Below are positions 53,755 to 55,182 of a stretch of DNA of 64,000 nucleotides, piece by piece; position 1 is the first letter of the stretch; every line of letters starts with the position of its first letter. Made by a program: the position numbers and the translations under genes. The notes below the pieces were generated by a model, which did no database searches, was not told the origin of the DNA, and saw only the letters and a program-made list of their open reading frames with translations. Origin of the DNA: Persicimonas caeni (GTDB taxonomy: Bacteria; Myxococcota_A; Bradymonadia; Bradymonadales; Bradymonadaceae); NCBI RefSeq assembly GCF_006517175.1, contig NZ_CP041186.1, positions 7,219,074-7,283,073 of the forward strand, given 5' to 3'.

Positions 53755-54314
53755 TCACACCGGCGGGCTGGCCTCCGCGGCAAGCTCGGCGATGGCTTCG
53801 TCGCGCAGCTGATTTTGCTGTCCCTCCTGGTCGCGCACACTCACCGAACGACTCCCAACCTCTCGGTCGCCGACGATGAGCATCCACGGGATGCCCGTGT
53901 CGTGGGCTTCGGCGATGCGGCGTCCGACGCTCTCGTCGGGGGCCACGACGCGTCCTCGGATACCTCGCGCACCGAGCTCTCGAGCGAGGGCGTCGGCGTA
54001 GTCGACGTGGTCCTCCCCAATTGGCAACACATGCGCCTGAACGGGCGCGAGCCACGCCGGAAGCCTTCCTTTGTGGTGCTCGAGGAGCAAGCCCATGAAC
54101 CGCTCGAGACTTCCCAGATGGGGTGGCGCAGCAGATGGGGAGAGCGCACTTCCTCGTAGCCGTCGGCTCGCATGCGCCGGCGCGCGGCCTCCTCGAGCAG
54201 CCGGCACAACTTGACGCCCCTCGGGTTCCAGAACACCATGCCGGGCGCTTCGTCTTGGAAATGCAACAGGTCCATACGCTGGGCGATTTGTCTGTGGTCG
54301 TTTGCATCTAACAT
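53755..54314 (-). pseudogene. threonyl-tRNA synthetase (catalytic-core type) remnant with internal deletion and frameshift
   Basis: Two frames together give a shortened ThrRS. From the ATG at 54314 (AGGAGG upstream): DHRQIAQRMDLLHFQDEAPG, MVFWNPRGVKLCRLLEEAAR and RSPHLLRHPIWEVS, the start of the class II core including motif 1. At about 54115-54125 the sequence jumps, in another frame, to LGSLERFMGLLLEHHKGRLP, the motif 3 region. The anticodon-binding domain follows (WLAPVQAHVLPIGEDHVDYA, SVGRRIAEAHDTGIPWMLIV) to a stop at 53755. About 200 residues, including motif 2, are missing. The N-terminal TGS and editing domains were never part of this copy. A Thr-rich leader lies upstream. An intact housekeeping thrS is expected elsewhere. 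Confidence 0.88.
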
Positions 54315-54385
54315 CGTCTTTCCTCCTGAATCATCGCCCGGTCATCCGGAGGAGCGGCCGTCGAACGCGAGACAAGAAACGCGAA

Positions 54386-54416
54386 ACGCCCCGTCCGGGA
54401 AAACCGGGCAGGGCGT
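54386..54416 (-). terminator. attenuator-like hairpin before the ThrRS remnant
   Basis: On the minus strand ACGCCCTGCCCGG (54416-54404) pairs with CCGGACGGGGCGT (54398-54386) with one G-U and one mismatch; the loop is TTTTC. A T-rich but broken tract (TTCGCGTTTCTTGT) follows. It lies between the Thr-rich leader and the ThrRS start, as an attenuator terminator would. Confidence 0.65.
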
Positions 54417-54444
54417 GAGTTCGTGCGTTTCTGTGTCGGTCAGT

Positions 54445-54525
54445 TCACCGCATGCGCACCTCACCAGCCCCGCCGGTGCGGGTGGTGGTCGTGGTGGTGC
54501 GGGCTGTGGTGAACCGCGCGTTCAT
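54445..54525 (-). CDS. threonine-rich leader peptide (ThrL-like)
   Basis: 26-codon frame: MNARFTTARTTTTTTRTGGA then GEVRMR and TGA. Nine of 26 codons are Thr, with a block of six in a row (54498-54481, mostly ACC plus one ACG). A hairpin with a T-rich tail and then a threonyl-tRNA synthetase start follow. This is the classical design of Thr-codon-controlled attenuation. The ribosome-binding site is weak (GAGAAAG). Confidence 0.78.
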   Translation of the reverse strand: MNARFTTARTTTTTTRTGGAGEVRMR

Positions 54526-54579: not shown

Positions 54580-55182
54580 CTAGCAGTCCGATTCGGCGCT
54601 GGCAACAGAGCGTGAGCGTCGTCCGCGACGCACCTCGACGTCGCTCAGGTCATTGGAGCGAACCCGAAAGATGTCGAGATGAGTCCACTGCGGCTCGTAG
54701 AGCAGCGTCGAGTAGAGCTCTTTTCGCTGCTTCCAAGTCTTTGCTGCCCACCAGATGATCGAGTCGCGGCTGAGGAACGCACGCCGAAAGGTCGCGTGAT
54801 TTCCGGAATTCCAGAGATCGCACCTGCTGATGCAGCGGTCGAGCGTGCGCCCAAGCATTTGGGTCATGACGACGTGGAATGGGAGGTCGAGCCAGACGAT
54901 GGCCTGGGCGCGCCGCCAGGCGATGTCCCGCGCTTTCGAGTAGTTGCCGTCGACGACCCAGCGCTCGCCGGCGCAGGCGCTGGCGACTTGGGCGCGGAAG
55001 TCGTCGGTCTCGCGCATCTGCCAGTCGGGCAGCCAGAAGAGCCCGTCGAGCTCGATGTGGCGGTTGCTCGTGTGCCAGGCGAGGCGGTTGGCGAGCGTGG
55101 ACTTGCCCGAGCCGGAAGTGCCCACGACGACGTAGCGGTCGTGGGGCTCGCCGTGGCGGTTGTAGAGGTTTGTTAACTGCAT
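54580..55182 (-). CDS. FlaR-like P-loop kinase / AAA NTPase (adenylate-kinase-like)
   Basis: 200 aa. Walker A at VVVGTSGSGKSTLANRLAW, then HIELDGLFWLPDWQ and WVVDGNYSKARDIAW, the arrangement of the FlaR / topology-modulation group of small kinase-like proteins. WLDLPFHVVMTQMLGRTLDR is the Walker B region. The Arg-rich C-terminus (RRGRRSRS) is atypical. Substrate unknown. No ribosome-binding site is evident at the ATG at 55182, which lies 16 bp after the trxB terminator; a separate promoter would be needed. Confidence 0.82.
   Translation of the reverse strand: MQLTNLYNRHGEPHDRYVVVGTSGSGKSTLANRLAWHTSNRHIELDGLFWLPDWQMRETDDFRAQVASACAGERWVVDGNYSKARDIAWRRAQAIVWLDLPFHVVMTQMLGRTLDRCISRCDLWNSGNHATFRRAFLSRDSIIWWAAKTWKQRKELYSTLLYEPQWTHLDIFRVRSNDLSDVEVRRGRRSRSVASAESDC

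Follow-up and report, generated by a model that had tools for sequence, protein, structure and literature searches.

Control of a tRNA synthetase by a leader peptide is established for pheST. In the E. coli thrL, trp, his and pheM-pheST attenuators a short ORF rich in the regulated amino acid is combined with mutually exclusive anti-terminator and terminator helices and with a downstream gene that acts on the same amino acid. B. subtilis thrZ encodes a second, full-length threonyl-tRNA synthetase (ThrRS) that is under T-box control, while ermC-type translational attenuation joins a resistance gene to a drug-stalled ribosome and a hairpin that closes the Shine-Dalgarno sequence (SD). To our knowledge, leader-peptide control of aminoacyl-tRNA synthetases is known in few cases only, namely pheST, some hisS genes and predictions in Streptomyces. 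For Streptomyces lividans a thrL-thrS leader has been proposed that contains two Thr codons, is leaderless and has no U-rich tail (PMC8079986). Histidine leaders of hisS and hisZ have been proposed in bacilli (PMC2965389), and actinobacterial ileS genes have been proposed to carry a translational T-box with a hairpin that occludes their SD (PMC1262725). Chains of RNA helices and their overlap with the ribosome-binding site (RBS) were discussed as variants of attenuation in a comparative study of 2010, as far as it is summarised in PMC4833913.

Here we describe a locus in a stretch of 64,000 nucleotides of the Persicimonas caeni genome (the window) that, judging from the DNA and its relatives, most probably carries a ribosome-mediated attenuator sensing threonine in front of a second, catalytic-core-only ThrRS. 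It shares with the E. coli attenuators the amino acid-rich short ORF, the exclusive helices and the matching target gene. In contrast to E. coli thrL, however, the target is a second ThrRS and not thrABC, and there is no Rfam match to the thr leader; moreover, most relatives of our locus have no U-tract, a hairpin covering the SD and a leader ORF that apparently starts at or near the RNA 5' end. The position of a leader peptide before an aminoacyl-tRNA synthetase gene is common to the S. lividans and bacillar systems, but the former has no demonstrated conservation, whereas here leaders with 5-11 Thr codons precede a core-only paralogue in 45 genomes. Like thrZ, our locus would provide a spare ThrRS induced as Thr-tRNA charging falls, although by a leader peptide and not a T-box, and with a core-only instead of a full-length enzyme. 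The SD-closing hairpin resembles those of ileS and ermC, with uncharged tRNA binding as the sensor in the first, a drug-stalled ribosome in the second and a Thr-codon leader peptide here. The principle of sensing is a known one. Novelty seems to lie in the target, a second ThrRS without proofreading, in how deeply the arrangement is conserved and in its double layer, although thrS leaders of other groups may have been mentioned earlier, possibly by Lopatovskaya et al. (2010).

The sequence-only reading of the window had pointed to a 26-codon frame on the minus strand with nine Thr codons, six of them consecutive, followed by a hairpin with a T-rich tail, a strong ribosome-binding site and a ThrRS start. 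All of this was confirmed (frame 54525..54445, 26 codons plus stop; ThrRS start ATG at 54314, after an AGGAGG). The features are:

54445..54525, minus strand: Thr-rich leader ORF with the putative regulatory codons, encoding MNARFTTARTTTTTTRTGGAGEVRMR and stop; an equivalent ORF lies before 45 of 45 short ThrRS genes
54481..54498, minus strand: region 1, the six-Thr run ACC ACC ACG ACC ACC ACC; orthologues keep Thr, with synonymous third positions
54467..54476, minus strand: region 2, CCGGCGGGGC, closing the leader ORF; its alternative partners are region 1 and, as anti-terminator, region 3
54386..54416, minus strand: regions 3 and 4, terminator-like hairpin ACGCCCUGCCCGGUUUUCCCGGACGGGGCGU; -21.4 kcal/mol, covariation in orthologues, cognate p 1e-4
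54374..54385, minus strand: U-rich tail UUCGCGUUUCUU of the 3:4 hairpin; 7 U of 12
54346..54356, minus strand: region 5, anti-Shine-Dalgarno stretch GCUCCUCCGG; pairs with the SD in the minimum free energy (MFE) fold
54322..54327, minus strand: region 6, the SD AGGAGG of the ThrRS gene
54108..54314, minus strand: 5' part of the short ThrRS gene, corresponding to residues 1-69 of an intact orthologue
53755..54117, minus strand: 3' part of the short ThrRS gene, in a different frame, with the anticodon-binding domain (PF03129) and a match to TIGR00418

Directly upstream of the leader (54580-55182, minus strand) lies a gene for a P-loop protein resembling 'DNA topology modulation' kinases, whose best NCBIfam match, PRK08118, scores under its cut-off.

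Runs of the form (ACN)6 also occur at a few dozen separate places across the organism's own 8.05-Mb genome, so the Thr run by itself is weak proof and conservation is the part that goes beyond chance. A search of 58 related genomes for intact short ThrRS genes yielded two (about 395 codons) in the same order as the window, each with its own Thr-rich leader of differing sequence (MPAPRPHTTTTTTTTTQQGRGCVVSAC and MFAHFNTTTGTTTTTTTRKGRSVRLCSRS). A scan of public genomes added Citreicoccus, two Myxococcus species and a Polyangiaceae MAG, again with a leader before each; Myxococcaceae are sampled by three loci. In one class (that of G374) the short ThrRS was found in 38 of 318 genomes, among which the Polyangiaceae MAG appears to be. 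Within the 450 nt upstream, 44 of 44 short-ThrRS loci (43 distinct) had an ORF with five or more Thr codons, three or more of them consecutive. With two further genes from a search with a leader model the total came to 45 of 45, comprising intact or contig-cut genes of bradymonad-type relatives, Polyangia-type bacteria and Myxococcaceae. The Thr-rich ORF that the sequence-only reading had proposed to look for upstream of intact orthologues was hence found before every one. Its stop codon mostly lies 84-153 nt before the ThrRS gene, with two outliers at 245 and 366. Leader Thr codons are ACC (172), ACG (100), ACT (31) and ACA (1), and in the alignment they hardly vary at the first two positions but are mixed at the third. 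Thr is kept although the third positions vary, which argues for selection on the amino acid and not for a microsatellite, an alternative against which the leader held up. We regard the leader ORF as conserved in its predicted coding capacity, rich in one amino acid and presumably translated.

The association with short ThrRS genes is specific in both directions, since a leader precedes all of them and strong hits of a leader covariance model occur only there. Among full-length ThrRS genes of the same genomes an ORF of this kind was seen in 2 of 21 cases, both long incidental ORFs, and a Thr leader before thrC (threonine synthase) in 0 of 15. Run over 284 genomes of the phylum, the covariance model recovered its training loci. 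Beyond these it gave only two strong hits (E 4e-9 and 3e-8), each of them immediately before a short ThrRS; L170 (G232), a locus already known, received E 7e-5. The remaining hits were weak (1e-5 to 1e-3), and the four inspected had no short ThrRS alongside. In an Rfam search no T-box, thr operon leader or other family reached threshold; there were only sub-threshold chance matches, and T-box and thr operon leader were absent among the matches listed up to E 5.

A separate observation concerns Burkholderiales and some Lysobacter-type bacteria, whose full-length thrS genes are preceded, at a distance of about 90-140 nt, by similar short Thr-containing ORFs of their own (loci L059, L073, L084, L090, L102, L115, L117, L125; L111, L123, L124, L127; L067, L085; L099, L112). 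Examples are MTPRTTTTLVFERR, MTPRTTTEVFERR, MFFPLARTTTRNFRPMSR, MTTTRTTTWPN and MSTTTYAHS. These ORFs may represent a Thr leader that the housekeeping thrS has acquired independently.

The leader RNA is strongly structured: the 219-nt region of the window folds better than 200 of 200 dinucleotide shuffles (z -4.7). In MFE folds of 44 leaders three hairpins recur, 1:2 over the Thr codons, 3:4 (terminator-like, across the family GCCCCGCC...GGACGGGGC) and 5:6 over the ThrRS SD. Region 2, the GGCGGG stretch with which the leader ORF closes, has region 3 as an alternative partner. This anti-terminator and 3:4 exclude each other and are about equally strong (duplex energies in the window -24.5 vs -21.4 kcal/mol). 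RNAalifold found no consensus pairs in the leader alignment, for which its gaps and uneven spacing are the probable cause; in its place we counted the named structures and compared duplex energies between cognate and non-cognate partners in 27 dissimilar leaders (17 at a stricter cut). Cognate partners won for 1:2, 2:3, 3:4 and 5:6 under every definition (p 1e-4 to 2e-3, indicative values because the sequences are related), with p at most 7e-4 for 2:3 in all variants. For 4:5 the advantage was clear under the loose definition (p 3e-4 to 6e-4, likewise indicative) and marginal (0.02 to 0.07) under the strict one, and among seven non-adjacent control pairings none showed it except, as a borderline case, 3:5. 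The alignment has compensatory changes in five of eight pairs of 3:4, a count reached in 1 of 500 shuffles, whereas the 2:3 core is complementary but nearly invariant and its aligned columns show no covariation. Family-wide the SD is closed more than with shuffled spacers (mean open probability 0.21 vs 0.39); in the window alone its sequestration was not better than in shuffles (p 0.54). With 2:3 and 3:4 the leader has the mutually exclusive pair of predicted helices by which an attenuator is recognized.

The downstream enzyme had been described as a second ThrRS reduced to its core, and this stood up as well. Short orthologues score 390-468 bits against TIGR00418 (curated cut-off 384), which identifies them as threonine--tRNA ligases; the complete proteins of 388-415 aa match this model only from about position 161-171 on and do not have the N-terminal TGS and editing domains of full-length bacterial ThrRS, and a full-length ThrRS was also present in 27 of 27 genomes checked. 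Zinc-ligand motifs occur in most of them. In a tree, the 41 short enzymes of sufficient length group in a single clade (support 100/100). It falls within proteobacterial full-length ThrRS and not with the Myxococcota full-length enzymes, which suggests an ancient transfer after which the N-terminal half was lost. By inspection, neighbourhoods were variable and no conserved gene partners were seen. In three Myxococcota of different families (L221 in G021, L222 in G178, L224 in G577) we noted very divergent full-length ThrRS that form one long-branched clade, possibly a transferred replacement of the housekeeping enzyme.

In the window itself the gene, which matches threonine--tRNA ligase from about residue 240 (E. 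coli numbering) on and lacks the TGS and editing domains, is broken. Its 3' fragment aligns from 54117 to 53801 with orthologue residues 279 to 372-384, so that about 210 codons are absent between the two fragments (an internal deletion). An overlap of about 10 nt between the two matches is what a single deletion between short repeats might leave. With 48 and 107 bits against TIGR00418 the fragments fall below the cut-off of 384, hence the gene is a pseudogene. The leader was said to have survived the loss of its gene, and indeed the window has an apparently intact switch before a recent-looking pseudogene.

The conserved leader, its conserved Thr codons, the exclusive and coevolving helices and the gene-specific association support the view that the leader is very likely a real switch, making the spare enzyme when charged Thr-tRNA is low. 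We infer that ribosome stalling would respond to Thr-tRNA in the following way. With charged Thr-tRNA plentiful, the ribosome would run through the leader and region 3 would pair with region 4; the ThrRS message would then end early (in the window's lineage, at the U-rich tail) and/or 5:6 would keep the RBS closed. With charged Thr-tRNA scarce, the ribosome would stall on the Thr run and block 1:2, region 2 would pair with region 3, and 3:4 could not form. Freed region 4 may then capture region 5, exposing the RBS so that the spare ThrRS is made. The short ThrRS would accordingly be an enzyme induced by threonine starvation.

The level of control may differ between lineages. At least six U within 12 nt after the hairpin were found at four loci (the window, L005, L006 and L153), whereas 40 of 44 have no strong U-tract. 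A good tract is present in the window, in the two relatives from its order and at a single further locus; elsewhere U is only about 2-fold enriched. The U frequency is 0.2-0.36 in the first 11 positions after 3:4 vs 0.13 in the rest of the leader. The attenuator-like hairpin of the sequence-only reading stands as a convincing intrinsic terminator only in the window's order and at one other locus, while the feature common to the family is the RBS hairpin. It might be possible that transcription attenuation is all there is, 3:4 being an intrinsic terminator and 2:3 an anti-terminator as in E. coli thr or pheST and the RBS hairpin being incidental. The U-rich tails, the U enrichment and the comparable, mutually exclusive 2:3 and 3:4 helices would agree with this; however, the lack of a strong tract at most loci, the closure of the SD above shuffles and the coevolution of 5:6 speak against it, and we give it a little less than an even chance. 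For the window's lineage we expect classical transcription attenuation. In most other relatives the missing U-tract suggests that control is probably translational, as well as or instead of termination.

A purely translational cascade of six regions (off: 1:2, 3:4, 5:6; on: 2:3, 4:5), comparable to an extended ermC system but set by an amino acid, is plausible though on balance rather doubtful. It would account for the coevolution of all five neighbouring pairings under the loose definition, for an SD closed by 5:6 in most sequences and for the many loci without a U-tract, but under the strict definition the cognate advantage of 4:5 is marginal (p 0.02-0.07) and the window's own order has a good terminator. 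Moreover, equilibrium folding opened the SD little: placing a ribosome on one codon after the other had no such effect, and sequestering region 3 opened it by more than 0.1 in only 7 of 44 leaders. The weak 4:5 and the closed SD count against our preferred attenuator as well, so that its switch would have to work kinetically, during transcription.

In most Polyangia-type and Myxococcaceae loci a sigma70-like promoter, TTGAC(A/G/C)-N17-(T/C)AtnnT, precedes the leader, with 6-10 nt between its end and the start codon (mean score 9.2 vs 7.1 for shuffles, p 2e-8). The leader ORF would accordingly start right at the RNA 5' end or no more than a few bases from it. The window and its two order relatives do not have this promoter-adjoining arrangement, and the two relatives carry an SD-like sequence before the leader.

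Another explanation is that the spare ThrRS serves as a resistance enzyme against ThrRS inhibitors such as borrelidin or obafluorin, the leader being a drug sensor since an inhibited ThrRS also empties Thr-tRNA. The patchy distribution (38 of 318 genomes in the class surveyed), the variable neighbourhoods, the single clade of proteobacterial affinity and the constant company of a full-length ThrRS would all be in line with it, and antibiotic producers do carry a second ThrRS, ObaO, in which obafluorin resistance comes from replacing Gly463 (E. coli ThrRS numbering) by Ser (PMC11252418). However, at this position 43 of 44 short enzymes have Gly, with the motif not found in one, so resistance via the ObaO residue was rejected, and no antibiotic gene cluster was evident beside the short ThrRS on inspection of neighbours. 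We consider the explanation unlikely, while resistance might still come about by a route other than the ObaO residue. Finally, a chance (GGT)n repeat that happens to read as Thr has a negligible probability: (ACN)6 does recur in the genome, partly in long tandem arrays, but the leader stands before all 45 orthologues and not before the controls, and uses mixed synonymous codons. The long tandem ACC-ACG arrays (G000:C1:457451-457578, 652302-652369 and 2150027-2150073) are true repeats, unlike the leader.

As to the benefit and physiological role of the proposed threonine-sensing switch, we tentatively suggest a horizontally spread, self-contained stress cassette. It would comprise a promoter, a leader ORF starting from the RNA 5' end and a six-region hairpin chain that responds to the charging of Thr-tRNA by switching transcription as well as the RBS of a small proofreading-free ThrRS, and it might serve as an inducible back-up if the housekeeping ThrRS fails or is poisoned. 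If the attenuator holds true, it would add a widely conserved threonine case, with a paralogue lacking the editing domain, to the leader-peptide control of tRNA synthetases. It raises the intriguing questions of why a proofreading-free back-up ThrRS would be kept that is made only when Thr-tRNA is short, and of how a single hairpin chain might govern termination in some bacteria and the start of translation in others.
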